Below are positions 30,302 to 44,535 of a stretch of DNA of 64,000 bases, one piece after another. Under the pieces are notes generated by a model. That model saw only the letters and a program-made list of their open reading frames with translations. It was not told where the DNA came from and did not search any database. This stretch comes from Zhongshania antarctica. GTDB lineage: Bacteria; Pseudomonadota; Gammaproteobacteria; Pseudomonadales; Spongiibacteraceae. Both the position numbers and the translations under genes were made by a program. The DNA is taken from assembly GCF_014202945.1 (NCBI RefSeq), contig NZ_JACHHW010000006.1, positions 310,001 through 374,000 on the forward strand, in the 5' to 3' direction. How positions within the stretch are numbered: position 1 is the first letter of the stretch; every line of letters starts with the position of its first letter.

Positions 30302-31540
30302 ATGTTAAGTTGGGATGAGTTCGATAAAGAAGAAGCACCGGCCAAAGCGCCTGCCGCCAAAACCCAAGCCCCAAAACCAGCTGAGCCGGTGGTTTCTGCT
30401 GCACTGAATACCATGAACAGCGAAGACAGCGCAGCGGTTGTCGACCAGGCTATTCTCGACAAAGCCAACGCCGCACTCGAAAGCCTCGACGTTGCCGCCG
30501 GTTTAGAAGAACTGGAAATGGGCGCGGCCCGCTTGCGGGTAGAAGACAAACGCATCATCAACTGCCATCTCGATCTTAACCAGCTCGTACCCTTTAAGTA
30601 CGACTGGGCATGGCAGAAATACCTCGACGGCTGCGCCAATCACTGGATGCCCCAAGAAGTAAACATGACTGCTGACATCGCCATGTGGAAAAACCCAGAA
30701 GGCCTGACTGACGACGAACGTCGCATCATCATGCGCTCACTGGGTTACTTCTCAACGGCCGATTCATTGGTTGCCAACAACTTGGTGCTGGCCGTATACC
30801 GTCACATCACCAACCCAGAGTGCCGCCAGTACTTGCTGCGCCAAGCCTTTGAAGAAGCGATTCACACCCACGCCTACCAGTACTGTGTAGAGTCGCTGGG
30901 CATGGACGAAGCCGAAGTGTTCAACATGTATCGCGAACTGCCCTCCATCGCTAAAAAAGCGGCGTGGAGCCTGCAGCACACCCAAGCACTGGGCGATCCT
31001 AACTTCCACACCGGCACCCCAGAAACCGACCAGGAACTGCTCCGCAACCTGATTGGCTTCTACGCAGTGACTGAAGGCATCTTCTTCTACTGTGGCTTCA
31101 CCCAGATACTGTCTATGGGCCGCCGCAACAAAATGACCGGCATCGCCGAACAGTTCCAGTACATACTCCGCGACGAGTCTATGCACCTGAACTTTGGCAT
31201 CGACATGATCAACCAGATCAAACTGGAAAACCCACACCTCTGGAGCGAAAAATTCCAAGGCGAAGTAACCCAAATGATCGTCGAAGGCATGCAGCTCGAA
31301 ATTGAATACGCCAAAGACTCAATGCCCCGCGGCGTACTCGGCATGAACTCCGGCATGATGGAAGAATACCTCCAGTTCATCGCCAACCGTCGCCTAAGCC
31401 AGCTCGGCTTAAAAGAACAATTCCCCGGCGCGCAAAACCCATTCCCATGGATGAGCGAAATCATGGATTTGCGTAAAGAGAAGAACTTCTTTGAGACTCG
31501 AGTTATTGAGTATCAGACTGGTGGGGCGCTGACTTGGTGA
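30302..31540 (+). CDS. nrdB: class Ia ribonucleotide reductase, beta subunit
   Basis: 412 residues. The radical-generating di-iron subunit. Iron ligands and the radical tyrosine region are in [17 protein letters not shown] (Glu and His), [11 protein letters not shown]-like [11 protein letters not shown], and [14 protein letters not shown]. The C-terminal tail ([12 protein letters not shown]) carries the residues that dock to NrdA. An acidic, alanine-rich N-terminal extension of about 80 residues precedes the conserved core, as in other gammaproteobacterial homologues. GAGG lies eight bases before ATG 30302. A strong bidirectional terminator follows, and this is the last core gene before the island. 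Confidence 0.96.
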
Positions 31541-31616
31541 TGTAAATCATCACGGCAATTCTCACTAGAGAGCGACATTTTGTCACTAGTGATGATCCCC
31601 AAAGTGAAATTCTCGC

Positions 31617-31684: not shown

Positions 31685-34342
31685 CTAATTCAAGAAGCCT
31701 CGATCAAAAGTGCCATCTTTGGCTTGCATACCCGGAATCATAATATAGCTCATCTCAATGTCGCTAGCCTTAGCAATCATCTCAGCATATTCTTGCTTAG
31801 CCTTCACCGTAGGATGGTCAATCATGTTCTCACCCTTTATCTCAACCATCACCAATGAGCCAGACCTATTGCGAATCAAGAAGTCTGGATAATAACTTCT
31901 TACTCTATGGGTATCAGGATCTACATATTGAATATAAAACTCTGACTGGCCATGAGTTAGCATCCCGGTAAACCAAATTTTATCGACCTTACCTGAATGC
32001 AAAATGTGCCAAAAGAAATCTCGTTCCGGCACTGAATCAAAGCAATAGTTATCTAAATGGAAAGTGTTATCTATGTACTTCTCTACCGAAGGCTCAGTAA
32101 CACCGACAACCATTTCTTTAGCAGCTCTCATTTCATAATAGCCAGGTGACAATGGTGGCTCTTTAACTAGAGCCACCTCATATTCCTGCTCTTCCTGCTC
32201 TGATTCGATATCATAAAGAAGTGCAAATAGACGAGGAATAATATGGTCGTATAAGACCTCGTTAAATTGATTAACTAACTTAAGAATACCCTCAAACCCC
32301 TCGTCAGTAGATTTGATTATTTTGTTGATTTGTAAACAAGGCATATTCAAATAACGGGAAATCTCAGCTGTTAGATTGTATTCAGAGAACTCCATGGGCT
32401 CCTTAATATAAGATATTTCACTAACAACCTTTGGCCGATTAGTGAATTCATCATGATTAAGGCCCTCCATACGTTGATGCATCACTCTGTAGCTAGACAG
32501 ATCTAAGCCCTCAAGACCAAGCCTCTCTCCCGCCACAAACGTCTTCTCTTTCACTTTAAAGCTACGCTTGATTCGCTTCAGCTTTATTTTTTCAATCGGT
32601 GTTATAGGCCTTACCTGTACAGCAACTTTATCCTTACCAACGGACTGCATTTCATCGGTACTTATTCGAAAATTCGCTTGAAGTTCCTTTTCTAGCAACG
32701 CCATATTATCGTTGGTTAAGTACACGTGCCCTGTCTCTTGGGTATCCCCAATAGACCGAAGACATCTCATCGTAGCTTGCAATACAAAAACTTTAGATTT
32801 GGGACTACGATATAAAGCCACCGAAAATAGTGAACGACAGTTCCAGCCCTCACGACCTTTGTTTACCAGCAGAATAAATTGTTTTTCGGATTTCACAGAA
32901 TCAAGCCCGTTAAACGCCCTAATATCGTCATTACTAGTAATACTAGTATCTCCGACATTCACTAATATTTTGTCTGCGGAAATTCCATGCTTGGCCAAGA
33001 CGGCCTCAACGGCAGGGCGTATTTCCTCCTGAACCTCTTCAATAGTAGTACCAAAAATTGCCATTTTGGGCAGCATCCCCTCAGGGCGCTTCCCAGCCGT
33101 TTGCTTTAGAAAGTCTGTAATGGATATGTCCAGGAACTCAAGTTCTTTGGTATTACTATAACCGTTAAGAACCACCTTCTTAAGATAGTTTCTGTCTATG
33201 GCCTCTTTAAGACCATAGGCATAAACCACTTCAGGCAAAACATCTCGACCGACATAAGGTGTACCAGTATAGTTATGACATGCAACTAACTGCGAACCCC
33301 GTTTCTTTAAACTTAATGCCAGCTCATCTATTGTCTTACGCAAACTATTTTGTGCATTATCCGCCTGAATACCCATGTCTTTGGCTAACTTAGTACCGAA
33401 GGCATGATGAGCCTCATCAACAAATATCCCGAGATTTTCTAAGCGGCGTAGCTTTTCAAAGCGTTGATTTGTAACTAATTCGCTTTCTTCCTGCGGCTCA
33501 TCCTCGTCACCCAATCCACCGAGATTTAACAGCGCAGCCATATCGGCACCGAGACCGTCTTTCTTGTAAATCTCCTTACTCGAAGAAAAAAGCTTATCGA
33601 TTGCAGCTTGATCGGAATTCTTACGCTTTAAAATAATTTTTTGAGAGTTCGAAACAACGATATTAAATCTTGAGCCATCCAAAGTATTAAGGGAAACACC
33701 CGCATCTTCAAGATAATGAAATTTAATTGTAATTGCGTTCAAATACTCAGCGGGAACAACTTTACTATGATCAAACGATTCCAGCTCACGCAACGATTGA
33801 AGCACTGTTTTATCCGGTGCAAAAACCAAAGCATTGTGTATGTAGCGCTCGTCCTTAGGGTATTTATTAGCTAACAAAAACTCATAAAAAATACACGTCG
33901 CCATCAGAATAGTTTTACCAGTACCCATCGTCAGCGCAAAGATATAATTTGGGTATATACGACCGTTATTGGCCGCTTTCATTTTTTTGAAGATCCCCTT
34001 GTACTGATTCTCAGGCAATTCCCAAAACATATCGGCTTGAACATCCCTATCCGGGATAGCCTTTTCACCGAATTTTCCAGATGAGTTATACCAATCATCG
34101 AATAGTTGATAAACAGGTTTATTATCGAGAAATTCTTTCAGAAACACATACATCTCGAGCGCTTCGTATTGAGGAACCCTCAAGAAACTGCCAGGCCGCT
34201 CTGAATCGTTATAGTCGAGAAATACCTTACTTAGCTTCCTATAATTCTTTTTAATAGCCGCTTTATTGTATTTATAAAAATAATACAAATGCAGGTAAAA
34301 GGCATTATTGAGATCAAAGTTTTCCTGGGGTGTATCAGCCAT
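31685..34342 (-). CDS. type III-like restriction subunit (Res): SF2 helicase plus PD-(D/E)XK nuclease
   Basis: About 885 residues. Helicase motor: Walker A MGTGKT (residues 139-144), DEAH box FVDEAHHAFGT, and helicase motif VI region LQATMRCLRSIG. C-terminal nuclease: YYPDFLIRNR followed by VMVEIKGE, the PD-(D/E)XK catalytic pattern. This layout is that of Res subunits, which translocate or slide along DNA and cut after meeting a second complex. ATG 34342 overlaps the end of the Mod gene (ATGGCTGA), showing coupled translation. The longer frame to 34360 is less likely. It is the last gene of a minus-strand operon with a UvrD-type helicase-nuclease and an HsdS-like protein, which is unusual for type III systems. 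Confidence 0.88.
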   Translation of the reverse strand: MADTPQENFDLNNAFYLHLYYFYKYNKAAIKKNYRKLSKVFLDYNDSERPGSFLRVPQYEALEMYVFLKEFLDNKPVYQLFDDWYNSSGKFGEKAIPDRDVQADMFWELPENQYKGIFKKMKAANNGRIYPNYIFALTMGTGKTILMATCIFYEFLLANKYPKDERYIHNALVFAPDKTVLQSLRELESFDHSKVVPAEYLNAITIKFHYLEDAGVSLNTLDGSRFNIVVSNSQKIILKRKNSDQAAIDKLFSSSKEIYKKDGLGADMAALLNLGGLGDEDEPQEESELVTNQRFEKLRRLENLGIFVDEAHHAFGTKLAKDMGIQADNAQNSLRKTIDELALSLKKRGSQLVACHNYTGTPYVGRDVLPEVVYAYGLKEAIDRNYLKKVVLNGYSNTKELEFLDISITDFLKQTAGKRPEGMLPKMAIFGTTIEEVQEEIRPAVEAVLAKHGISADKILVNVGDTSITSNDDIRAFNGLDSVKSEKQFILLVNKGREGWNCRSLFSVALYRSPKSKVFVLQATMRCLRSIGDTQETGHVYLTNDNMALLEKELQANFRISTDEMQSVGKDKVAVQVRPITPIEKIKLKRIKRSFKVKEKTFVAGERLGLEGLDLSSYRVMHQRMEGLNHDEFTNRPKVVSEISYIKEPMEFSEYNLTAEISRYLNMPCLQINKIIKSTDEGFEGILKLVNQFNEVLYDHIIPRLFALLYDIESEQEEQEYEVALVKEPPLSPGYYEMRAAKEMVVGVTEPSVEKYIDNTFHLDNYCFDSVPERDFFWHILHSGKVDKIWFTGMLTHGQSEFYIQYVDPDTHRVRSYYPDFLIRNRSGSLVMVEIKGENMIDHPTVKAKQEYAEMIAKASDIEMSYIMIPGMQAKDGTFDRGFLN

Positions 34343-36095
34343 GCTTGATAACCTCCTCATAAGACTCTGACAAAAGGTCAGTAATTTTTACTTTTATAGT
34401 TCCTGCGTCCTGAGGAACTAAATAAACCCCTGAGACAAAATCTTTTTTACCAGGAATATCAATAACAGCTGGCTCCATGGCCGCCCCATCATAGTTCCAA
34501 TCTATAACGATAGAGTCAACCAGTTCTCGCCACTCACTAACGGACTGTTTCTGGAGGCTCAGCTTTTGCATCAGATTCATTGGATAAAAGCTAACAACTT
34601 CAAGCTTCCCATCAACAAGTGACAGCTCAGCTTCGGAACTTCGCTTGAATTCAATATTCGACTTATCTCGCAGTATATCTACAACTTTAACATTGATCTT
34701 ATATCCACATTCCTGCTCAAGATGCGCCTTAATATCTGCCTCATGCCCCATACACACTAGCATCACAGATTCGACCGGCTTATTGGGATTATCTTCCCTC
34801 CTCTTCTCAAACACCTTATAGGGAAAGTTAGCTATCAAGTCATTAAGATCCTGCCTAGTAGCAATCCTATTAACCGGCATAACTTTTACCATAAACCCAT
34901 CTTTTTCCCCATCGTAAACGGTGCCAGAGACCGGCTCGATCTCCAATGCTTCGACCAAAAGGTTCTTAGCTTCTAATGGGTTTCTAAACAACTCATAATT
35001 ATTGACGTTATACACTTCAAAAGAATCATATATCGCACTTTCCGACAGGCACGTTTGCTTCCGCTCTTCAATCAATCTCTTTGTGGTAGTTTGAATAGCA
35101 CCTAAATTAATATCAGACCCAATAAACCTTCGACCATTTTTCATCGCTACCGCTTGAGTCGTACCAGACCCCATAAAGCAATCGAAAATCAGATCTCCAG
35201 GATTTGAACAATGCTTAATAATTCGTTCCAGCAACTTCTCCGGCTTCTGCGTAGGGTACGCAGTCCGCTCCCGAGCTGCCGGATTTATAATTGACATTTC
35301 CCACACATCCGCGAGCGGAGCCCCCTCGGAATCGTCTTCTACCGATGCTGCAGTTCTATTACCTGCTTCATCAAATAAAGCTACTTGCTTCTTCCCTTTC
35401 CACCTCTTGAGCGTTCCCTCCGAGGCCTCCTGTGTTTCAATCATATTAAATGTTCTTGAAGAATCTTTTTCCGAGCAATACCATAAAATAGTGTCGTGAT
35501 TCCGCTGAAAATTATTTGATTTAACAGCCCACTTTCGATAATGCCAAACTATTTCATTAACAAAGGACTCACTTCCAAATATTTCGTCCATCAAGCATTT
35601 TAGATGGTGAGACTTATGCCAATCACAATGAAGGAATACACTTCCGTTTTTACAAAGTAACTCTTTAATTAGGACTAAGCGCTCATACATGAATTGAAGA
35701 TATTCGTCATTTGACCAAATGTCGGAATATTGCTTCTCCTCAAATCCACTTACATCTGAATTTACGTTATGCCCCTTCGACTTAATATTCAGCTTATACT
35801 CCGCCTTGGAGTCAAAAGGAGGATCAATATATATAAGATCAATCTTCCCCCTGAAATCTTTAAGAAGATGACTCATTACCTGAAGGTTATCACCCCAGAA
35901 TATCTTATTTATCCAACCATTCACGTCCTCCCCGTAGACCTCTTTCTTTTGCGCGGGGTAATATTGGGTGGAAGTAAATGGCCTCTTTCCATGCCAATGC
36001 AACATTGGATAGCCTTTAATAGGTTCGAACTTATACTTTTCGACACTAGCTAAACCACCGATTTCTTCTAGATTTAACGGATTCTGCTCTGACAT
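34335..36095 (-). CDS. type III-like DNA methyltransferase (Mod), beta-class N6-adenine/N4-cytosine
   Basis: 586 residues. Catalytic motif IV LIYIDPPFDS is at residues 87-96 and the SAM-binding motif FMGSGTT at 307-313, the beta-class order. Only about 216 residues separate them, close to a bare methyltransferase core, whereas classical type III Mods carry a long target-recognition insert there. A C-terminal domain of about 250 residues follows. It should methylate host DNA to protect it from the Res product. Its ATG overlaps the stop codon of the helicase-nuclease gene (TAATG), and its end overlaps the res start, so the three genes are tightly coupled. Confidence 0.88.
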   Translation of the reverse strand: MSEQNPLNLEEIGGLASVEKYKFEPIKGYPMLHWHGKRPFTSTQYYPAQKKEVYGEDVNGWINKIFWGDNLQVMSHLLKDFRGKIDLIYIDPPFDSKAEYKLNIKSKGHNVNSDVSGFEEKQYSDIWSNDEYLQFMYERLVLIKELLCKNGSVFLHCDWHKSHHLKCLMDEIFGSESFVNEIVWHYRKWAVKSNNFQRNHDTILWYCSEKDSSRTFNMIETQEASEGTLKRWKGKKQVALFDEAGNRTAASVEDDSEGAPLADVWEMSIINPAARERTAYPTQKPEKLLERIIKHCSNPGDLIFDCFMGSGTTQAVAMKNGRRFIGSDINLGAIQTTTKRLIEERKQTCLSESAIYDSFEVYNVNNYELFRNPLEAKNLLVEALEIEPVSGTVYDGEKDGFMVKVMPVNRIATRQDLNDLIANFPYKVFEKRREDNPNKPVESVMLVCMGHEADIKAHLEQECGYKINVKVVDILRDKSNIEFKRSSEAELSLVDGKLEVVSFYPMNLMQKLSLQKQSVSEWRELVDSIVIDWNYDGAAMEPAVIDIPGKKDFVSGVYLVPQDAGTIKVKITDLLSESYEEVIKHG

Positions 36096-38965
36096 TATAC
36101 GGCTTCCTTAAATTTCCAATTCTTTCTGTCACAATAGGATTTCATATCACAGTCAACACACGTTTTCACTGGGCGCTCTGTAATACTAAAGTCTTTCATC
36201 TCAATTCTGTCTACGATATTGTCAAATACCTTAATAGTACTTCCTATGGCCGAGCCATCCTTGTCGAAAGTGATGGTCGGCACCCCGCTCTCCACCCCCG
36301 TGAAGTACAAATGCATTTTACTAACCTTGTGGCCAGTGCGCTCTTCGACTAAATGCGCGTAAACTTCTAACTGGCGCTTGTGATGTTTGATTCGCTCAGC
36401 ATCTTTTTCCATGTCTGGTTTTTTCTCAGACTTAAAATCGACAATTTCAACGGTATTGTTCTCGCCTACGATAAGATCAACACTACCCTTGAGTATGTAA
36501 TTACCCTTCACTAATGAGATATCGACTTCGCAATCTTTAATGCCTGACCAGTCATCCTGCTTGCGATTCACATAACGCATAACATGCTTTAACGCTGCCA
36601 CAAGGGTTGAGTCGGCGAGATACACCCGCTCTCTATTTGCTAGGTTCCGGTAATTATCCTGAAACCATCCCTCTATATTCTCTCTGGTTATTAGATGTTC
36701 TTCGCTACGTAATGCAGCTTTATGGATATCCTCTAAAGTTTCATGCACTAATGTACCAAACAGCATGGGACTGGCTTTTATTGGCTGAAATTCTAAATCC
36801 TTAAAGAACCGGTATTGCTCAGCACAGGTTTCAAATAAGGTGATGTGAGATGTAAACGCATACTCCTTCTTAATATTTACGTCTTTGACCGTATCGAAGT
36901 TCAATTCATTGATAGCGTCTTTACGGTCACGCCATGACGGTAAGTCATCGACATACTTCACGAAATGCTTGGATGGTGTTCGTCCACTGCCTAGGCGCTC
37001 CTGATCTGTAAGTACCAATAGGTTTTGCGCTCTAGAAAAGGCAGTGTAGTACAGTCGCCAGAAATCAAAGTACTTGGTTGATTCCAATGGCTCAAATGAC
37101 TCTCGGTTAAGGTAGCCCTGCTCAAGTACTTCATCTAAATCTTTATACTGCTTTCGTGGCGATGCCCCTAACGACCCCACCATTACTACAGGGAATTCTA
37201 ACCCCTTAGACTGATGAATAGTAAGAAACGATACATGGCCAGAAGGGGCATATTCTGAGGCGTCTTCATACTCGTCTATACCGCCATCCTTAAGGAACTT
37301 GAGAAACTGGTTAAACAGGCCCCTTAGGTTGCTTTCAAGATATTTGGGGTTAAGCACACTGATATGGTGAAGATATTCAAATTTAGCCAGTAGCTGCGAC
37401 ATAGTCGCTAAGTTGCGCTGCGCTCTACCGCTTCCCGTTTCGGCATCAAGGTAGTCGGCAAATAGCGGGAATTGTAAAAGCTGGTAAAATAGACCACTGA
37501 AGGCATAGTCAGCGTTCTTAGTAAGCCCTAGGTGGCGCCTAGCATAAGCTTGGCACCAATCAAGAAGATCTTTATGCCCCGGTTTCGCAACCTCAGCCAT
37601 AAAGGGCTTGAGGCAATGCTGGTCATAGTAACCCCATATTGCCAGCTCGACTCCTTCTTTTGGCGCTCGTATAGATCGAAACTGTGGGAACACCAGCATT
37701 ATCGCGCCAATCATCAACCTAATTTCTTCGCGCTCAAAGAAAAGGTTGGCCCTAGGCGAGTAAACTGCAATCCCTCGCTCTTCTAACCCCTGAGCCAAGG
37801 CCTTCACCTTATCGCTCTTTACTGACTTAAAGAGGAAAGCTACCTGATTCCAATCAGTCAGCTTTCCGTCAGTCCTTAAGCTCACGAGCAAGGCATAGAC
37901 CTCTTCAACCCACTCATCACCCACTTCCGATATTGCTTTAATTACAGTAGGGCCAGACTCAAACTCCTCTTCCCTAGGCTTGATATGCTTGGTGTACCTA
38001 TATCGCTGGTCATTTACTTCCCATACCTGATCACTCATCCACCTGTTATAAAAGTGAATAATATCAGGGTGAGAGCGGTAATTAGTTACCAACCCTATTT
38101 GCTTACACTCATTGTCGTCAAAGTTGTCGGGGAATTGCAAAATATTACGGATAGTAGCGCCACGAAACCGGTACAAGGCCTGATCATCATCACCTACTAC
38201 GCAGAGATTATGATCGTCACCCATCAATAGCTTGAGGATCATCTCCTGGATTGTATTGGTATCTTGATACTCATCGACCATCAGATACTTAATTCTGCTT
38301 TTCAGCGACGCTAAGACTACCGGATGATTGCGCAGTAGATTTAGCGCTTCGAGCTGGATAGTAGAAAAATCGAGGGCATTGCGCTCCTCGAGCTTGAGCA
38401 GATAGAGCGCGTAGCATTCACCTAAAGCTATCAGAGCCGTGTCGTCAGATTCGATAAGCCTTTGGTGATCTATAGCTTCCTCAGTGACTTTGTTTATCCA
38501 TTGCAGCAAGCTCTCAGATTTAGACCATACTGGCGTCTTATCACTGCCTAAAATTTGATCAACATTACTAATGGCGCGAAAGTCATTGAGGTTTTGATAT
38601 AGAAAGTACTGCTGATCGAACTGATCCATAAGGACAAAGCTACGCTTTAGCCGCGTGTACTCACGATAGTCTTCGATAATTCTCAAGCAAATAGAGTGGA
38701 AGGTGCCTAGGAACATCTCGTTGAGATTGAATTCAACACGCAACTCCAACAAACGATTGGATATTCTCGTCGTTAACTCCTGAGCAGCCTTTTCTGTAAA
38801 GGTAACAACAAATAAGGCCTCGGGCTCAACACCGTGATTTTGAATCAAATTGATAATTCGCTCGACCAGGGTATATGTCTTACCTGAACCTGGGCCTGCG
38901 ATTATCAAAAGAGGGCCCTTAACGTGATCAATTGCTTCTTGTTGATGCTTATTAGCTACAGACAT
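36095..38965 (-). CDS. UvrD/Rep-type helicase fused to RecB/Cas4-like Fe-S nuclease
   Basis: 956 residues. SF1A motor: Walker A GPGSGKT (residues 24-30), DEYQDTN, VVGDDDQALYRFRG, VTNYRS and TIHQSKGLEF. C-terminal nuclease: FGTLVHETLEDIH, DLIVGENNTVEIVDFKSEK (split by a few residues), and QLEVYAHL give the RecB-type PD-(D/E)XK signature. An early cysteine (FETCAEQY) plus CVDCDMKSYC complete a Cas4/AddB-like [4Fe-4S] pattern. Such proteins unwind and degrade DNA ends. AAGGAAG precedes ATG 38965. It overlaps the mod start by one base and therefore belongs to the restriction operon. It could instead be a repair helicase carried along, but the coupling argues for a joint function. Confidence 0.88.
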   Translation of the reverse strand: MSVANKHQQEAIDHVKGPLLIIAGPGSGKTYTLVERIINLIQNHGVEPEALFVVTFTEKAAQELTTRISNRLLELRVEFNLNEMFLGTFHSICLRIIEDYREYTRLKRSFVLMDQFDQQYFLYQNLNDFRAISNVDQILGSDKTPVWSKSESLLQWINKVTEEAIDHQRLIESDDTALIALGECYALYLLKLEERNALDFSTIQLEALNLLRNHPVVLASLKSRIKYLMVDEYQDTNTIQEMILKLLMGDDHNLCVVGDDDQALYRFRGATIRNILQFPDNFDDNECKQIGLVTNYRSHPDIIHFYNRWMSDQVWEVNDQRYRYTKHIKPREEEFESGPTVIKAISEVGDEWVEEVYALLVSLRTDGKLTDWNQVAFLFKSVKSDKVKALAQGLEERGIAVYSPRANLFFEREEIRLMIGAIMLVFPQFRSIRAPKEGVELAIWGYYDQHCLKPFMAEVAKPGHKDLLDWCQAYARRHLGLTKNADYAFSGLFYQLLQFPLFADYLDAETGSGRAQRNLATMSQLLAKFEYLHHISVLNPKYLESNLRGLFNQFLKFLKDGGIDEYEDASEYAPSGHVSFLTIHQSKGLEFPVVMVGSLGASPRKQYKDLDEVLEQGYLNRESFEPLESTKYFDFWRLYYTAFSRAQNLLVLTDQERLGSGRTPSKHFVKYVDDLPSWRDRKDAINELNFDTVKDVNIKKEYAFTSHITLFETCAEQYRFFKDLEFQPIKASPMLFGTLVHETLEDIHKAALRSEEHLITRENIEGWFQDNYRNLANRERVYLADSTLVAALKHVMRYVNRKQDDWSGIKDCEVDISLVKGNYILKGSVDLIVGENNTVEIVDFKSEKKPDMEKDAERIKHHKRQLEVYAHLVEERTGHKVSKMHLYFTGVESGVPTITFDKDGSAIGSTIKVFDNIVDRIEMKDFSITERPVKTCVDCDMKSYCDRKNWKFKEAV

Positions 38966-39209
38966 ACACTTCCTTGTTTTATAGGTTCTGCGAAATAATT
39001 ATGTAAGGCCTCAAGCTATTCCGACATACCGCTACCCCCCTATTACCCGACGAAAGAATTCCCTAGCGGGCTCACAACCGAAATCAACCCAGTACGAAGC
39101 CATTTGATATGGATAAATCGGTTAAATCCACGCGAAATATCTAAGCCGACTATATCCAATTCCGCAAGTAGAGACGAGAACTCCCGCCATTTAATACTGA
39201 CTTTAAACC
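38966..39209. other. gap inside the restriction operon, no confident gene
   Basis: About 244 bases between the HsdS-like gene and the helicase gene. On the minus strand a roughly 50-codon frame is open through 39190-39045 (in another phase than the upstream gene) but has no ATG and no family match, and a 23-codon ATG frame (from about 39108) has no ribosome site. It could be a decayed tail of the HsdS-like gene. No terminator is seen, so transcription probably continues. Confidence 0.4.
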
Positions 39210-39821
39210 CTAGCCACCACGCAGCAACCCCCCAACAGATTCGCGATACATCTCAGCTATTTTAGCTTGCTCCTCCTCTAAATTTATCCGCGCAGCAACA
39301 TACTCAAACCATAATTCAAGGCAACTTTTCTGCAACTCTGCCGACGGAACAACGACAGAAAGCTCCGAAAGCATCCGCTTATTAACCACAGGCCCAGTCC
39401 CCACACCGAGCTTGGACTCAGCTAGCACCTCTTGCGTCTCAGGCAGATTGATAAACCACGCCAAATACGCTGGATTTACATCAGTATCATGCACTTTTAG
39501 TTGAAAAAACTGATGATGGCATGCGACTCGCGCATTATCTGGCAAATCGATTTTATCGATGACCGTGGCATGATTCGTTCTGCCATTCATCCGAAAAATT
39601 ACATCTCCGACCTCAAGCCACCGCGATTTCCCACGCCATTCGAGCCTAGTTTCGATCACTGACGACCAATCAACCTGACAAAATTCGTCAATATTGCGCG
39701 GCTGAACCATATAAATACCCGAGCCCGAGTCATCAGGAATCGTCCCCCTAAGGGGATGACCCACCCAAATTGACGCAATATCACCCAATTTTTTGGTAAT
39801 TTTCACACTTTCCTCAGCCAC
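39210..39821 (-). CDS. HsdS-like protein with a single target-recognition domain
   Basis: About 203 residues, half the size of a type I specificity subunit. Conserved HsdS features: KKLGDIASIWVG at the start, MVQPRNID, the W/LEVGDVIFR block, HHQFFQLKV, and the C-terminal helical segment with PSAELQKSCLELW leading into a spacer-like helix (ARINLEEEQAKIAEMY). HsdS domains read the target sequence for a methyltransferase and a nuclease. No hsdM or hsdR is adjacent; instead the downstream genes encode a helicase-nuclease, Mod and Res. GTG 39821 is chosen because a GGGGG tract lies five bases upstream. GTG 39833 is possible. It is the first gene of the minus-strand operon. Confidence 0.75.
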   Translation of the reverse strand: MAEESVKITKKLGDIASIWVGHPLRGTIPDDSGSGIYMVQPRNIDEFCQVDWSSVIETRLEWRGKSRWLEVGDVIFRMNGRTNHATVIDKIDLPDNARVACHHQFFQLKVHDTDVNPAYLAWFINLPETQEVLAESKLGVGTGPVVNKRMLSELSVVVPSAELQKSCLELWFEYVAARINLEEEQAKIAEMYRESVGGLLRGG

Positions 39822-39900
39822 AGATACCCCCACCAGACGCCTTTGTAAAATTAATTACTGGTATATTAAATCTGATTAGAAGCAAAAGGCGACATAATGA

Positions 39901-39928
39901 TTGACTTTTCTTTCACTTTGTTTATACT
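39901..39928 (+). promoter_or_regulatory. sigma-70-like promoter before leader module 1
   Basis: TTGACT at 39901-39906 and TATACT at 39923-39928 with a 16-bp spacer. Transcription would start near 39935, about 50 bases before the five-codon mini-ORF at 39984. Confidence 0.55.
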
Positions 39929-39983
39929 GATCCAATCCCAGCACTTTGCTGCAACAATTATTTATTTTTATAAGGTATATGTC

Positions 39984-40001
39984 ATGCGAATACGAAGCTG
40001 A
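39984..40001 (+). CDS. five-codon leader peptide MRIRS
   Basis: ATG CGA ATA CGA AGC TGA, with AAGG eight bases upstream of the ATG, an ideal ribosome site for an ORF that is otherwise far too short to be a working protein. Its last codons form one arm of a 10-bp perfect inverted repeat (TACGAAGCTG at 39991-40000 with CAGCTTCGTA at 40080-40089). Its codons CGA, ATA and CGA are rare in E. coli-like usage. Met-Arg-x-Arg resembles the minimal arrest peptide of erm leaders. It is interpreted as a regulatory leader, not a functional product. Confidence 0.5.
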   Translation: MRIRS

Positions 40002-40089
40002 TTACCCGCCCCTTAATTGCGCTGGCGGTTTTACTCTACGGGTCTTTTAAAACCAAGGAATCGCCAATGTTAAGTTGCACAGCTTCGTA
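39991..40089 (+). promoter_or_regulatory. leader RNA fold after the MRIRS mini-ORF
   Basis: The outer stem is the perfect 10-bp repeat at 39991-40000 and 40080-40089. Inside, CCGCC (40006-40010) can pair with GGCGG (40024-40028), while GGTTTT (40027-40032) can pair with AAAACC (40049-40054). The last two choices share bases 40027-40028 and exclude each other. AAAACC borders an AAGGA ribosome site (40055-40059) in front of ATG 40067. A ribosome on the mini-ORF would block the outer stem. Confidence 0.4.
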
Positions 40090-40474
40090 CACACATAAAT
40101 ACCGCAATGCATTGCTCAGCTTATTGAGCAAAAATTTTACAGCACAGCCATCTTTCCCCTTTTACGCTACATATACAGCACCAACCCACACCCAGCACCG
40201 AATTACCTATCGGCCTTCAGCACAAAATAACTTACGTGTTGAACTTAACCATTTCGTGACGCTAGTATTTTGCGTTAGTGAAAAAATTACCGATAAATTG
40301 CGCACGCTGTGCGCCCACGCTACACCATTCCATCTAATGAATTCCCCCCACCAGTTACTCGCCAAATTGGCGACGTTCTGCACTAAAATTTCTGCGTTTC
40401 CACACCCCCATTCATACCCTACCAAAACATTCATATCCGGTTTAATAAGCCGAATATCAACGCTCGATATTTAG
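40067..40474 (+). CDS. doubtful 135-codon ORF behind leader module 1
   Basis: The only reasons to consider it real are AAGGA seven bases before its ATG and the promoter plus leader structure ahead of it. The product is rich in threonine, serine, histidine and proline, has no recognisable domain, membrane segment or signal, and its base composition does not look like the neighbouring tns genes. It lies where the transposon end and its TnsB-binding sites are expected. It may be a relic of a gene once served by this leader, or non-coding DNA open by chance. Confidence 0.2.
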   Translation: MLSCTASYTHKYRNALLSLLSKNFTAQPSFPFYATYTAPTHTQHRITYRPSAQNNLRVELNHFVTLVFCVSEKITDKLRTLCAHATPFHLMNSPHQLLAKLATFCTKISAFPHPHSYPTKTFISGLISRISTLDI

Positions 40475-40551
40475 CCCCATTTAGCGCTAACGATCGACGC
40501 CCAAACTATTAATTTATAGTTTAATATCAATAAGTTACGAATTTTCTGCGT

Positions 40552-40580
40552 TTGACAGCGGATACGCTTGCGCCTATTTT
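40552..40580 (+). promoter_or_regulatory. promoter of the tnsABC-tniQ operon
   Basis: A perfect -35 element TTGACA (40552-40557), a 17-bp spacer and TATTTT (40575-40580). Transcription would begin near 40587, 26 bases before the MKLRI mini-ORF and about 130 bases before tnsA. The strong -35 suggests that control is exerted after transcription starts, or by TnsB binding over the promoter. Confidence 0.65.
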
Positions 40581-40612
40581 TCCTACTCAATTTATTAAAA
40601 AGGAATTGCGAC

Positions 40613-40630
40613 ATGAAACTACGAATATGA
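40613..40630 (+). CDS. five-codon leader peptide MKLRI
   Basis: ATG AAA CTA CGA ATA TGA behind AAAAAGGA, with eight bases from AGGA to the ATG. CTA, CGA and ATA are rare codons in E. coli-like usage, and Met-Lys-Leu-Arg fits the charged-x-charged arrest pattern of macrolide-type leaders. It lies in the untranslated leader of tnsA, followed 30 bases later by a switch-like hairpin. Together with the MRIRS mini-ORF it shows that the design is repeated, which argues against chance. Confidence 0.5.
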   Translation: MKLRI

Positions 40631-40660
40631 CACAAGCGGAAAAATTACTAACAAGCTAGC

Positions 40661-40715
40661 GGACGCTTAAGCAAATAGCGTCCTGACCCAGCTTCTCACT
40701 AAATTAAAGGACGCT
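40661..40715 (+). promoter_or_regulatory. mutually exclusive hairpins over the tnsA ribosome site
   Basis: GGACGCT occurs twice, at 40661-40667 and at 40709-40715. The single complement AGCGTCC at 40677-40683 can pair with either copy. Pairing with the first leaves the tnsA ribosome site free. Pairing with the second buries AAAGGA (40706-40711) and the bases up to the start codon. This is the layout of a translational attenuator. Confidence 0.5.
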
Positions 40716-40718
40716 ATG

Positions 40719-41531
40719 ATGCCTAAAAAGCCATCTACGGGGCCCACTCGGCCTAAAAAAGCTACACCCGGAACGCGTAAGCGAAACACCAAGAAAGTAC
40801 CCCGCAAATGTGTACCGCTTGCGATGCTCACACTTGCCCTTAGGGACGTACACCGCACTCCGCCAGCACGCATCCCCTCAACGCATTATGGCGGGCCGCG
40901 CCGCTGCCATTTCCCATCAATCAAAACCAAGCTTCTGGATAGCAAGCAACGCCAAGATACCTTCGATCATGCTTACCGCGTTGAAGGACGACTGGAAAGG
41001 GCATTTTGCTACCACGCCGATTTTGATCCTGCGATCGAATGCTATTTCCCCCAACCAATCGAAATTGATTTTATGGGTGTTGATGGTCTTTCGACTTACA
41101 CATCGGATTTCTCGGTTTTTCCACATGATGGCCCGCCATACCTCGTCGAGATCAAGCATAGCGACTTCCTTCTTTGCGAAGATGCGCAGGAGCTGTATCG
41201 ACAACGTGCCGCCACCATTGAGGAATACACCGGCATTGAGCTGAAATTCCCCACCGAAGAATCGCTTGTAAGGCAGCCGGAGCTTGAAAACCTTGAGTTC
41301 ATGCACGGCTTCCTCTTCATGCCCATTCACATCCTCAAAGAAAGCTGGAAGGCAGTAAAAAGCCGCCTCAGCAGTTCCGAGCCTACTGCTTTGGGCGAGT
41401 TGTACGAAGATTCCGACTTAACACCCGAAACGGTCGCAATGGGCGCCAGCTACGGGCTTTTCATCGGCGAAGCCACCACTTTCCACAACGCGCCTTTCGG
41501 GCGTGATCTCACACTTTTCCTGGAGCACTAA
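40719..41531 (+). CDS. tnsA: TnsA-like transposon endonuclease
   Basis: About 270 residues. TnsA makes the 5' strand cuts at the transposon ends and lets a Tn7-like element move by cut-and-paste. After a very basic N-terminus (PKK, RKRNTKK) the nuclease core has E93 (RLERAF), D130 (YTSDF) and E144-x-K146 (LVEIKHS), the expected catalytic set. The helical C-terminal part (from about 170) would bind TnsC. ATG 40719 is preferred to ATG 40716 because AAAGGA then sits seven bases upstream. The gene is two bases ahead of tnsB. Confidence 0.9.
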   Translation: MPKKPSTGPTRPKKATPGTRKRNTKKVPRKCVPLAMLTLALRDVHRTPPARIPSTHYGGPRRCHFPSIKTKLLDSKQRQDTFDHAYRVEGRLERAFCYHADFDPAIECYFPQPIEIDFMGVDGLSTYTSDFSVFPHDGPPYLVEIKHSDFLLCEDAQELYRQRAATIEEYTGIELKFPTEESLVRQPELENLEFMHGFLFMPIHILKESWKAVKSRLSSSEPTALGELYEDSDLTPETVAMGASYGLFIGEATTFHNAPFGRDLTLFLEH

Positions 41532-41533
41532 TT

Positions 41534-43510
41534 ATGACTATGCAACTTACAAAAATGGACGACATCCTTGATGACGGCGAATTCCGCGTCGGAAACCGGT
41601 ATTACATCAAGGATCAAGGCATGTTTGAAATTGTCAGCATGCCCTCTGCGATCAACGCCGCAGTGCGGCTATGCAAGGTCAATGGTAAGCAACAAATGAA
41701 CACTGGCCTGCCAATGCTAAGACACATGCTCAATCTAAAACAACTGCTGCCGTCCTCCAGAGGCATCACGCTTAAAGAACTCAACAAAGATGTCGTTGGG
41801 CTCAGTCCGCAGGGGTTTTTCGACTTCGAATACAGAGTGAAGATCGTTAAAGCCTTGCTTTCCTTACCCACAGGCAGCCCCAAATCTGTCTCCAAAGACG
41901 AAATCAGGCTAATCACTGAAACACATAATCAAGGAGCGGCGGCAAAAGGACTTACCCCACGCAAAGCACCGTCTTACCCGACTGCGCGCAGGTGGGTTCG
42001 AACCTACGAGCAACGCGATCTTTTTCAAGATCTTGCAAAAGAAGACCACCGCGCACTTCCACGGAAAAAGCGCCTGAACTCCGAGGCCAATGAAATTTTA
42101 CACGCCACCATTAAGGACTTTTATGCCCATTGGCTGCAGCCCTCAGCAGAACCTGTGTACTGCGAATATGTACGTCGCTGCGTCGAGGCCCACCCAGAAC
42201 TTACCGACATTGAACGCAGAAAATTCATTGGCAGTAAAAGCACGTTCTATCGCCGTCTGGCGGCGTGCGATCAGATCACCATCCGCGAAAAGCGCGTAGG
42301 ACGCTCAAACGCTAGAAAACAAATGAAGTGGGGCGGCCCGACTCAGATTCCGAATTACATTGGTGGTCTGGTCGAAATTGACTCTACGCAAGTAGATGTT
42401 TTCGTAAAGCATGAAGATTTCCGGTTTGCCTATCGTCCACACCTGACCGTATTCCTCGACGTCGCAACACGTTGCGTTCTCGCCTGGGATTTTTCACTGT
42501 CTCCGCCGTCAGGGTTCAAGTCTGCACGGACTCTGCAAAAGTGTGTGACACGCGACGACTATCTATACCGCGCAATCCCCACGCGCTTTGTGGGTGACCA
42601 CGGCCCCGAATTCGTCAGCGAGACATTTATTCGGCAATGCATTGTATTGGGTGCCGACCCAGAGTTTGCGAATCCAGATCACCCAGACGGTAAACCCCAT
42701 GTCGAATCCAAGTTCGCCAGCGCCAATGCCTCTTTTTTCCACCAAGTAGCTGGAAGCACAAAAGGGCTAGACGCGAAAAAGCGGATGAACAAGCCAGAGA
42801 AGGAGGCCGTATACACGCTCGAAACCTTAGAGCAGCGATTCATCGCCTATTTGGACATGTATCACCATTCTGTTCACTCAGGGCTGGAGGGCATGACACC
42901 CCACCAAATGTGGGTTCAACTTATGCAGGATCCAATCCGCGCTCCACGCACCCTTGCCCCCGAAGACTCTGTGCTCATCGGCTACGAAATTGAACGCCGC
43001 GCCGTCCGGAAAGGCCGAGTCAGTATTCACGGCCTCGAATGGTATACCCCCGGCGCCGCAAAACTGGAAGCAGACCTAAAGAAGAGTGGCAGACAGGCCG
43101 AAGTCCGCGTCAATCCGTTTGACCTTGGCCGCGTGTTCATTTGCGATCCGAAAGATCCGAGGAACACCCAGCACATCGGGTACGCCGTCAAAGAGAAATA
43201 CCAAAATGGCCTGACCCTAGAAGACCACAGCGCTATCCGCAAAAACAAGGCTGAGTGGAAAAAAATCTACAACGACGACATCGCACTTGCGATCCGCAAA
43301 GCTGATTTTTACCGGATTTTGCGCAATGACGCTGAAGACGGCGTTCTCGATGATCTGCGTGCCAAACAGACCAGTACGGCAATTAGTACACAACGGGCTG
43401 CTAAGGCCCTGGCAGCAGCCAAGTCCGTTAACGCACCGCGCAAGTCCAAACAGGCTCCAGAGCCCGAGCTGCCCAGCGACGTTGGCGATCTGAGCGACTA
43501 CCTCGGATAA
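41534..43510 (+). CDS. tnsB: TnsB-like DDE transposase
   Basis: 658 residues. It binds the transposon ends and performs the 3' cleavage and strand transfer. The retroviral-integrase-type core has the three acidic residues in GGLVEIDSTQVDV, FVGDHGPEFVSE and KPHVESKFA. N-terminal helix-turn-helix regions and a C-terminal beta-barrel (Mu-transposase-C-like, IHGLEWYTPGA) flank it. The C-terminal tail rich in proline, lysine and alanine (residues about 610-658) resembles the TnsC-interacting tail of other TnsB proteins. It is the second gene of the tnsABC-tniQ operon. Confidence 0.93.
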   Translation: MTMQLTKMDDILDDGEFRVGNRYYIKDQGMFEIVSMPSAINAAVRLCKVNGKQQMNTGLPMLRHMLNLKQLLPSSRGITLKELNKDVVGLSPQGFFDFEYRVKIVKALLSLPTGSPKSVSKDEIRLITETHNQGAAAKGLTPRKAPSYPTARRWVRTYEQRDLFQDLAKEDHRALPRKKRLNSEANEILHATIKDFYAHWLQPSAEPVYCEYVRRCVEAHPELTDIERRKFIGSKSTFYRRLAACDQITIREKRVGRSNARKQMKWGGPTQIPNYIGGLVEIDSTQVDVFVKHEDFRFAYRPHLTVFLDVATRCVLAWDFSLSPPSGFKSARTLQKCVTRDDYLYRAIPTRFVGDHGPEFVSETFIRQCIVLGADPEFANPDHPDGKPHVESKFASANASFFHQVAGSTKGLDAKKRMNKPEKEAVYTLETLEQRFIAYLDMYHHSVHSGLEGMTPHQMWVQLMQDPIRAPRTLAPEDSVLIGYEIERRAVRKGRVSIHGLEWYTPGAAKLEADLKKSGRQAEVRVNPFDLGRVFICDPKDPRNTQHIGYAVKEKYQNGLTLEDHSAIRKNKAEWKKIYNDDIALAIRKADFYRILRNDAEDGVLDDLRAKQTSTAISTQRAAKALAAAKSVNAPRKSKQAPEPELPSDVGDLSDYLG

Positions 43511-43575
43511 ACCTTTCCCTAACCCCGCGGAGGGTAACCCTCCGCCTTTTTCATCACTTTTTAAGGAGCAATAAC

Positions 43576-44535
43576 ATGGCTATGATTCGCGATGAAATGC
43601 GAAAAGCATTCCACCACAAGCGCTGTACGCCACCAGACTACAAACGCTTATATTCAGCTATCCAGCGTATGCACCGCCGCTTTGGCAATCGCAAAGACCC
43701 CGGTGCGCTGGCCATCTTCGGCGAATCAGGGTGCGGTAAAACCACGCTATCCGAAGACTACTTCTATAAGTACTGCCCGTACAACAACGTAAGCGAAGCA
43801 GGTAAGCAGAAAATCCATACAGTCGTGTGGATTGAAGTACCAGAGTACTGCACCATTCGCCGGTTCGTGACCCAAATTTGCAAGCGGTACGGCATTCCTG
43901 CACCCGCGACAGACAATGCTGACCAGCTCAAGGACGCGGTGCTAGCGGCCATGAAGAGCGCCGGCACACAGCTTCTTATTATCGATGAAGCACAACAGTT
44001 TCTCTCCAGTAATAGCGTCTCCGGCGCTAAACAGGTCGGTCATTTTGTACGCCATCTAATGGATGCCTCGCGCGTTCCATTTGTCTTTATCGGGACACCC
44101 GGCTACCAAGCGTTTATCGACGCCGATGAACCCATTCGGCGTCGTATTAAACGTCGTGAAACTATGCGCGGCTTTACCGCACCGCTGGAAGAAAAAAGTA
44201 TTTTCCACTTCACCGTCCTCGCGATGTTAAAGCACTTAGACGACACCTGTAGTCGTCGTCTCTGCAGCAAGCTTTCCTCGCTAGAGCTTTCGCAGCGTCT
44301 TTACCTGATGTCGGGAGGTCGAATCGGGCCAGTCGTTGATTTCTTCGACCAGTACATCGAGGACGAAATCGAAGAATCTAGCACCAAGTTAACCTTTGGC
44401 ATCCCAGAGTGTTTACGCGCAATGGAATGCTTTGATCCACCGTTTGAATTTCACACATCGAAACCCGCTTTCGAACTGAACCGCTCATCGCTACCGAAAT
44501 TACTCACCAAATATCCGTCACCGGAGGCTCAATAA
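43576..44535 (+). CDS. tnsC: TnsC-like AAA+ transposition regulator
   Basis: 319 residues. An ATPase that links target-site proteins with the transposase and imposes target immunity. Walker A GESGCGKT (residues 49-56), Walker B LLIIDEAQQF and the sensor FVFIGTPGY are in place. Size and sequence are closer to TniB-like compact TnsC proteins than to the 555-residue TnsC of Tn7. TAAGGAGC lies upstream of ATG 43576. The last bases overlap the start of tniQ (AATAATG), so the two are coupled. Confidence 0.92.
   Translation: MAMIRDEMRKAFHHKRCTPPDYKRLYSAIQRMHRRFGNRKDPGALAIFGESGCGKTTLSEDYFYKYCPYNNVSEAGKQKIHTVVWIEVPEYCTIRRFVTQICKRYGIPAPATDNADQLKDAVLAAMKSAGTQLLIIDEAQQFLSSNSVSGAKQVGHFVRHLMDASRVPFVFIGTPGYQAFIDADEPIRRRIKRRETMRGFTAPLEEKSIFHFTVLAMLKHLDDTCSRRLCSKLSSLELSQRLYLMSGGRIGPVVDFFDQYIEDEIEESSTKLTFGIPECLRAMECFDPPFEFHTSKPAFELNRSSLPKLLTKYPSPEAQ

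Follow-up and report, generated by a model that had tools for sequence, protein, structure and literature searches.

Fusions of a UvrD helicase with a Cas4-like nuclease have been reported to lie most often next to type III Mod and Res genes (PMC5704561, 2017, Phylogenomics of Cas4 family nucleases). That study, in which the system is left unnamed, proposes an ancillary role of UvrD-Cas4 proteins in defence through unwinding and cleavage, and also mentions a RecB-like recombination role. Here we analyse a 64,000-nucleotide stretch of the Zhongshania antarctica genome (contig NZ_JACHHW010000006.1, positions 310,001 to 374,000; hereafter the window), which carries on its minus strand three adjacent genes, called Hel, Mod and Res below, that are predicted to encode a type III-like restriction-modification (RM) pair together with a dedicated UvrD-Cas4-type helicase-nuclease. 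Both features of the published association are found in the window, namely the fusion of UvrD with a Cas4-like nuclease of pfam12705 and a position beside type III Mod and Res; the operon is a new example of an already described association, and PMC5704561 is the only paper we found that describes it. A preliminary description of this DNA had known of no named system with its exact gene set; a three-gene association turns out to be on record, without a system name. The earlier study documents the gene neighbourhood and suggests a function; the present analysis measures how far the three genes descend together and how the target-recognition domain (TRD) of Mod is swapped.

The type III enzyme EcoP15I (Mod2Res1) shares with this locus a beta-class Mod, a superfamily 2 (SF2) Res with a C-terminal PD-ExK nuclease, and overlapping mod and res genes; it differs in that Hel is a third gene in all 29 three-gene loci assembled here. 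Measured against type III systems generally, the mod and res genes are adjacent and coupled, Mod has DPP(Y/F) ahead of FxGxG with the TRD between them, and Res combines, on its motifs, an SF2 motor with a C-terminal PD-(D/E)XK nuclease. The departure lies in the two-gene composition, as Hel is present in 29 of the 34 loci with a Res match. AddAB, AdnAB and RecBCD likewise join a UvrD-type motor to a RecB-family nuclease; unlike them, Hel is a single subunit of 956 amino acids tied to an RM operon, and no gene for a partner helicase or nuclease subunit of the AddAB/AdnAB/RecBCD type is present in the Hel-Mod-Res operon. Profiles of GajB from Gabija match Hel through its UvrD part, with no GajA-type gene among the three. 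PD-Lambda-5, which carries a methyltransferase, was considered as the same system and rejected, since PMC9519451 describes it otherwise, as a compacted prophage version of an RM plus abortive-infection system.

Hel (36095-38965, 956 amino acids), Mod (34335-36095, 586 amino acids) and Res (31685-34342, 885 amino acids from the ATG at 34342) form one three-gene unit that runs from 38965 to 31685 on the minus strand. The stop codon of Hel overlaps the start of Mod in the minus-strand TAATG at 36093-36097, and Mod and Res overlap by the 8 nt of ATGGCTGA at 34335-34342 on the same strand, both as read from the sequence. Because Mod and Res share ATGGCTGA, the start of Res is most likely 34342 and not 34360, where the longest open reading frame (ORF) of Res, 31685-34360, begins; this start lies at an offset of -7, the same as in several relatives. 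The preliminary description had placed four minus-strand ORFs here, with these two shared junctions and with the helicase, Mod and Res genes translationally coupled. The ORFs and both junctions were confirmed, and the coupling is borne out for Hel-Mod-Res as one unit.

The domain calls made at that stage (a UvrD helicase with a nuclease, a Mod and a Res) agree with the Pfam scores; a scan of the operon proteins against NCBIfam gave nothing over cut-off. Hel consists of a UvrD-type superfamily 1 (SF1) helicase (residues 5-653; UvrD-helicase, PF00580, 251.5 bits) and a RecB/Cas4-type PD-(D/E)XK nuclease (residues 706-946; PDDEXK_1, PF12705, 74.2 bits) with a four-cysteine pattern (C714, C936, C939 and C945), to which we assign an iron-sulfur (Fe-S) role on the assumption that it corresponds to the patterns of AddB and Cas4. 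Conservation was assessed in a 27-locus alignment that leaves out L173 (Hel in two pieces), L165 and L037, the last because its alignments overrun stop codons, though frames of 959, 592 and 869 amino acids are open. In Hel, the DEYQD motif, the four cysteines, H741, E745, E813, D830, D843, K845, Q865 and Y869 are invariant in 27 of 27 loci, and Walker A is invariant in all 26 aligned rows that reach it. The AlphaFold model of Hel has a pLDDT (predicted local distance difference test) score of 84.8, and its best Foldseek matches are AddA, UvrD, Rep, PcrA, RecB and AdnAB chains.

Mod is a beta-class N6/N4 DNA methyltransferase (N6_N4_Mtase, 179.6 bits) in which IDPPF (90-94) precedes FDCFMGSGT (304-312); its target-recognition segment falls within about residues 100-300, with a core at 201-275, and its profile matches the EcoP15I Mod chain 4zcf_A at E 1.5e-28. 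Residues D91, P92, P93, F307, G309 and G311 are invariant across the 27 aligned loci, and differences at F94, F304, C306, M308, S310 and T312 occur in 1 to 5 of the 27 rows. Res scores 27.5 bits with ResIII (cut-off 22.5) and carries the SF2 helicase-type motor motifs MGTGKT, DEAH, TGTP, GREGW and QATMR, followed by a C-terminal PD...ExK nuclease (P825-D826...E840-x-K842, in the numbering of the longest ORF), a region that also gives a Tn7_TnsA-like_N match just below the Pfam cut-off. Twenty-two motor and PD...ExK residues are invariant in 27 of 27 loci, T147 and R503 being variable; with the tested residues intact, Res looks able to cut by itself like a classical Res. Among the best 25 PADLOC families listed, Mod matches type III and type II methyltransferases and Hel matches DRT-helicase and GajB; Res has a weak REase_III match (E 2.7e-4).

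Loci for comparison were gathered from protein searches of plasmids, genomes, viral contigs and one named phage genome; plasmids and viruses were targeted deliberately, and the counts therefore say nothing about habitat. Fifteen of the 25 plasmid records that matched Res were opened, and L141 was left uncounted because its match coordinates and identities are identical to those of L140. All 38 loci collected were scanned for the genes, and Hel, Mod and Res occur in the same order in 29 of them, the window included, across several phyla. These comprise 11 plasmids (from Vibrio, Nitrosomonas europaea, N. eutropha, Phaeobacter, Yoonia, Blastomonas, Tunicatimonas and Spirosoma, and three from Enterococcus, one of which carries Hel in two pieces), four genomes or metagenome-assembled genomes (Halanaerobium, an Eubacteriales, Acetatifactor and Poribacteria), a genome of the window's class (G255), the window itself, 11 contigs from IMG/VR and a phage of Acutalibacteraceae. 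Rhodobacterales and Bacteroidota are represented among the plasmids, and Bacillota among the genomes. The order recurs more than by chance, and it supports the earlier proposal that a type III-like Mod-Res pair and a helicase-nuclease make up one unit. The operon is nevertheless rare: at E 1e-60 the Res family was found in 2 of 398 sampled genomes of the window's phylum, the window's own included, and in 2 of 299 genomes sampled from another phylum, one of which formed the centre of that sample and the other of which is of the distant L165 kind.

Junctions resembling those of the window are common among the 29 loci; as starts were chosen by offset, the overlaps are possibilities and not mapped starts. 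An in-frame ATG permits an 8- or 11-nt overlap of Mod and Res in 18 loci and a 1-nt overlap in two, and in the remainder the start of Res lies at +1 to +9 in eight and at +20 in one (L037). Between Hel and Mod, a stop/start overlap of 1 or 4 nt is possible in 14 loci (in L134 only through an unusually long Mod start), the spacing is +3 to +24 in ten and +49 in one (L037), and one or two genes intervene in four (L036:12871-13638, L169:6348-7088, L139:7244-8107 and L024:10921-12502). No Pfam family exceeded its cut-off in the three intervening proteins scanned (those of L036 and L139 and the first gene of L024). One may postulate that Hel is a hitchhiking element-maintenance gene whose linkage to the RM pair stems from transport of the operon by plasmids and phages, and the 11 named plasmids, one phage genome and 11 IMG/VR contigs, all from deliberately searched collections, would fit this idea. 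We consider it quite improbable, given that the genes stay linked, coupled and in the same order in unrelated plasmids, chromosomes and phyla; loss or relocation would be the expected fate of a passenger gene.

The three genes have also descended together. Pairwise distances across the 27 aligned loci correlate at 0.987 between Hel and Res, 0.877 between Hel and Mod and 0.883 between Mod and Res; for the part of Mod outside residues 101-300 the correlation is 0.954 with Hel and 0.957 with Res, and for Mod 201-275 it is just 0.13 with Hel and 0.12 with Res. None of 2000 permutations reached the observed value for the first five of these correlations, and 59 and 124 did so for the two that involve Mod 201-275. 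The recognition segment is thus nearly uncorrelated while the rest of Mod is correlated, and it therefore provides an inner control for joint descent.

The behaviour of this segment is clearest among closely related operons. In 33 locus pairs Hel is more than 85% identical (Res 85-99%), and Mod is 68-80% identical in 31 of these pairs and 95% identical in two (L021/L170 and L138/L145). Nine of these 33 pairs were profiled; in the seven that are swapped, Mod 201-275 drops to 4-35% identity in operons with Hel 90-99% and Res 92-99% identical, and the first 25 residues of Mod are likewise variable in the profiled pairs. Because the segment is swapped between near-identical operons, specificity moves by exchange within Mod; because swapping is confined to Mod, Hel and Res are specificity-neutral partners that serve any specificity. 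Near-identical operons that differ mainly in the recognition segment of Mod offer natural comparisons with which specificity and any requirement for Hel could be examined.

The mechanism that we favour, and that we regard as about evenly poised between right and wrong, is one in which Mod sets specificity, Res cuts and Hel then degrades the product. Mod would read and methylate its site, with specificity set by the exchangeable target-recognition segment, and Res, with its ATP-dependent SF2 motor and PD-ExK nuclease, would cut unmethylated DNA. Hel combines a RecB-family nuclease with an SF1 motor from the UvrD family, whose polarity is 3'-5', and may then load on the resulting ends or exposed strands and unwind and degrade the cut molecule, which would make a single cut irreversible, independent of RecBCD. 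RecBCD can be inhibited by phages; if Hel does degrade Res-cut DNA, the operon would be a restriction system with its own RecBCD substitute, robust to phage RecBCD inhibitors, and this could help explain its presence on plasmids and phages of distant hosts.

Exchange of the TRD in Mod also makes self-cutting a recurring hazard, and Hel might instead protect the host by repairing or clearing self-inflicted breaks after a change of Mod specificity or entry into a new cell. The AddA/RecB-like fold of Hel fits recombinational repair, and a RecB-like recombination role is among those mentioned in PMC5704561. We judge such a protective role improbable: the host encodes a 1140-amino-acid frame (G000:C5) with AddA/RecB-like matches to Hel, and probably has an enzyme of this kind already. 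Ordinary type III systems, moreover, are not known to carry such an enzyme.

Several observations weigh against degradation by Hel after the cut, or against a dedicated link of Hel to this Mod-Res pair, and the interpretation must be made cautiously. Action after the cut, as well as the polarity, substrate and Fe-S cluster of Hel, is something that we infer; no experiments on Hel were found in the open-access literature, subscription journals, REBASE and DefenseFinder being outside the search; and the distance correlations show joint descent, not physical interaction. Foldseek TM-scores (template modelling scores) for the Hel model, by query length, are 0.35-0.52 among the 50 matches listed. 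The Res profile had zero matches to PDB chains at E 0.01, and the Res model is weak (mean pLDDT 68.6, with a poor first half); it matches generic SF2 motors, including type I HsdR and type ISP enzymes, and EcoP15I Res is absent among the 50 fold matches listed for it. At L146, Mod is accompanied by a truncated Res that matches over residues 15-167, and Hel was not found in the 8 kb before Mod. The distant Mod-Res set of L165 (L165:5004-10520; 38-40% identity) is without Hel; its Mod frame is broken near the start and an EVE-domain-like gene, just under cut-off, sits between Mod and Res, in what is a possible sister arrangement. On an Ideonella plasmid (L175:6866-14267) a still more distant pair stands in reversed order, Res-Mod. 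Its Res shares 31% identity with the query across 61% of the query length, the plasmid's annotation shows no Hel, and the pair is preceded by toxin-antitoxin genes and followed by genes for an AAA ATPase, DUF4276 and Mrr. A Priestia plasmid (L026:7944-17079) encodes a Hel homologue (46%) with a 989-amino-acid N6_N4 methyltransferase and a 1105-amino-acid ResIII protein that fall outside the present Mod and Res families, the Res profile barely matching the latter; in this setting Hel may work with an RM pair of a second kind. Hel-family proteins at 32-42% identity in L028, L031-L033 and L039 are without Mod or Res in the stretch examined, and adjoin RNase_T, metallophosphatase/AAA or unrelated genes where these were scanned.

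Hel is absent from five of the 34 loci with a Res match: L146 and L165, described above, together with L133, L166 and L167. L133 begins inside Mod at a contig edge, so that Hel cannot be seen. L166 (L166:8001-9926) and L167 (L167:8001-9746) hold, like L176 (L176:4500-7263), pieces of Res beside IS1216 on enterococcal plasmids, with no Hel or Mod; these are decayed copies of the Hel-Mod-Res operon. Annamia, conversely, has Hel with just the first 52 residues of Mod. The preliminary description had named mod-res pairs without the helicase gene in close relatives as the finding that would speak against a single unit; what we found instead are five exceptions that are edge, broken or distant loci, and at none of the 34 Res-matched loci could an intact Mod-Res pair of this family be shown to do without Hel.

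This absence of a Hel-free pair could equally be expected if Hel were an obligate third subunit, with cleavage needing Hel for processive unwinding or a second cut, so that these operons constitute a distinct three-subunit type III class; translational coupling and the close correlation of Hel and Res distances (0.987), neither of which follows the TRD, point the same way. We find an obligate role doubtful, since Res retains all tested motor and PD-ExK residues, Hel-family proteins occur in other contexts, and one or two genes separate Hel from Mod in 4 of the 29 loci. It is possible, though we lean against it, that the operons represent a separate three-subunit ATP-dependent class of the cut-and-degrade type, in which the UvrD-Cas4 protein is required for cleavage or physically coupled to it and specificity is swapped via Mod alone. 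The high correlations leave the standing of all these mechanisms unaffected, as they bear on joint descent.

The preliminary description had counted a fourth gene as part of the operon, an HsdS-like (S-like) gene with a single TRD at 39210-39833 on the minus strand (207 amino acids from the GTG at 39833; the start at 39821, where that description ended, is another in-frame GTG). This assignment was not upheld: the gene is separated from Hel by a gap of 244 bp (38966-39209) with no overlap, is found in 1 of the 38 loci, and has relatives that head type I operons. Recurrence of all four genes, which had been proposed as the mark of a single system, thus holds for Hel-Mod-Res in 29 loci and fails for the S-like gene. 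In Pfam the S-like protein falls short of the Methylase_S cut-off (E 0.069), but it matches Specificity_I in PADLOC (E 6e-13, among the best 25 families listed). As a Methylase_S family search of 13 genomes and records missed the window's own S gene, we used a profile built from small-S proteins, with the window sequence among the seeds. Across 5336 ORF segments of the 38 loci this profile matched the window's gene alone; as a control it recovered small-S genes at 10 of 10 type I loci, all of them among the seeds as well. An S homologue was not found in the other 37 loci, of which three with the full Hel-Mod-Res set (L134, L140 and L145) have less than 50 bp before Hel, too little to reveal one; at L140 the locus edge leaves Hel from residue 80 onward.

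The family of the S-like gene is instead that of type I RM loci with a small extra S (small-S/HsdM/HsdS/HsdR), from which the window differs in that HsdM, a second HsdS and HsdR were not found in it. In all four annotated plasmid neighbourhoods opened (from 44 records matched), HsdM comes after the S relative and a full HsdS and HsdR lie beyond it, with other genes interspersed in one of the four, and an HsdM homologue lies 3' of the small S in all five genome loci read (from 14 other genomes matched). In the sister genome G008 (L152), the site beside nrdB carries a small S gene together with HsdM, HsdS and HsdR, all on one strand, adjoining TnsA/TnsB-like genes. We read 15 of 17 same-genus nrdB sites, at 15-18 kb each (G002 and G017 end at contig edges), and these 15 flanks, among which that of G008 is the one with a type I set, gave zero Hel, Mod or Res matches. 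No HsdM or HsdR remnant was recognisable in the 244-bp gap by tblastn with nine HsdM, two HsdS and two HsdR proteins; the best match in the gap was a 12-residue HsdR segment on the opposite strand (E 0.02 in the gap search, about 7 for the window), and the best match of the 13 proteins in the whole window spans 31 residues at E 0.016, at a distance, at 24.2 kb. The S-like gene is probably what remains of such a type I operon. On the simplest view, Hel-Mod-Res would have replaced that operon, of which no HsdM trace was recognisable, or would have been inserted at the site.

A four-gene operon was accordingly rejected, as the S-like gene does not stand beside other Hel-Mod-Res sets and its family heads type I operons. 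For all four genes to be one system, the small S would have to give a second specificity to Mod or Res; the gene is on the same strand and adjacent with an intact 207-amino-acid frame, and a consensus scan of the 244-bp gap detected no sigma-70-like site, sites being found in the same number as in shuffled sequences, so that a shared S/Hel transcript is possible, with the proviso that the scan does no better than shuffles. We give this reading hardly any weight, with S homologues absent from the 37 other loci and S relatives sitting with HsdM in the four annotated plasmids opened and in six genome loci read. Mod, furthermore, carries its own exchangeable TRD, and there is therefore no evident need for an S subunit.

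The operon sits just downstream of a plus-strand gene at 30302-31540 that we take to be nrdB, and its transcription heads toward that gene. None of 37 related genomes contains a full-length Hel (their best match scores 145 bits, where the Hel of the window scores 2202), and the GC (guanine plus cytosine) content of Hel, Mod and Res is 40-44%, against 52.7% in the 31.5 kb to the left. For these two reasons the operon looks horizontally acquired; the site that it occupies, downstream of nrdB, is variable. A short repeated intergenic sequence (CTCACTAGAG...) occurs at 31550-31604 in the window and about 5.8 kb into L164; it has a terminator-like hairpin next to nrdB and is common to several same-genus genomes. 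For the right border of the island, the similarity seen near 69.6-69.9 kb in the extended sequence resembled a repeated element between genes and was disregarded.

To the right of the S-like gene, a plus-strand Tn7-like set at 40716-46628 comprises TnsA-, TnsB-, TnsC- and TniQ-like ORFs in a row. The TniQ-like ORF is over the Pfam cut-off and the TnsA-like ORF has no Pfam match over cut-off; the TnsA-, TnsB- and TnsC-like ORFs are what we assume them to be from their order and general knowledge of such sets. TnsA and TnsB of the window show 30% and 27% similarity to those of L152. Neither the ends of this element nor terminal repeats that would place the operon inside it were found. Small-S genes lie by Tn7-like genes in three places: the window (39210-40716), G008 (L152:13870-17509) and a Proteus plasmid (L123:1-9296). 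The stretch to the right of the Tn7-like genes has a GC content of 44% as well. It includes a GmrSD type IV restriction gene (54711-56594, minus strand) with both Pfam domains over cut-off and, at 56725-59265 on the minus strand, a gene for an 846-amino-acid protein that presumably has a Schlafen/AlbA-like start followed by an NTPase-like part. Just beyond the window, on the minus strand at L164:1688-4054, lies a gene for a 788-amino-acid protein that we take to be primase/SF2-helicase-like, resembling TOTE-type conflict genes.

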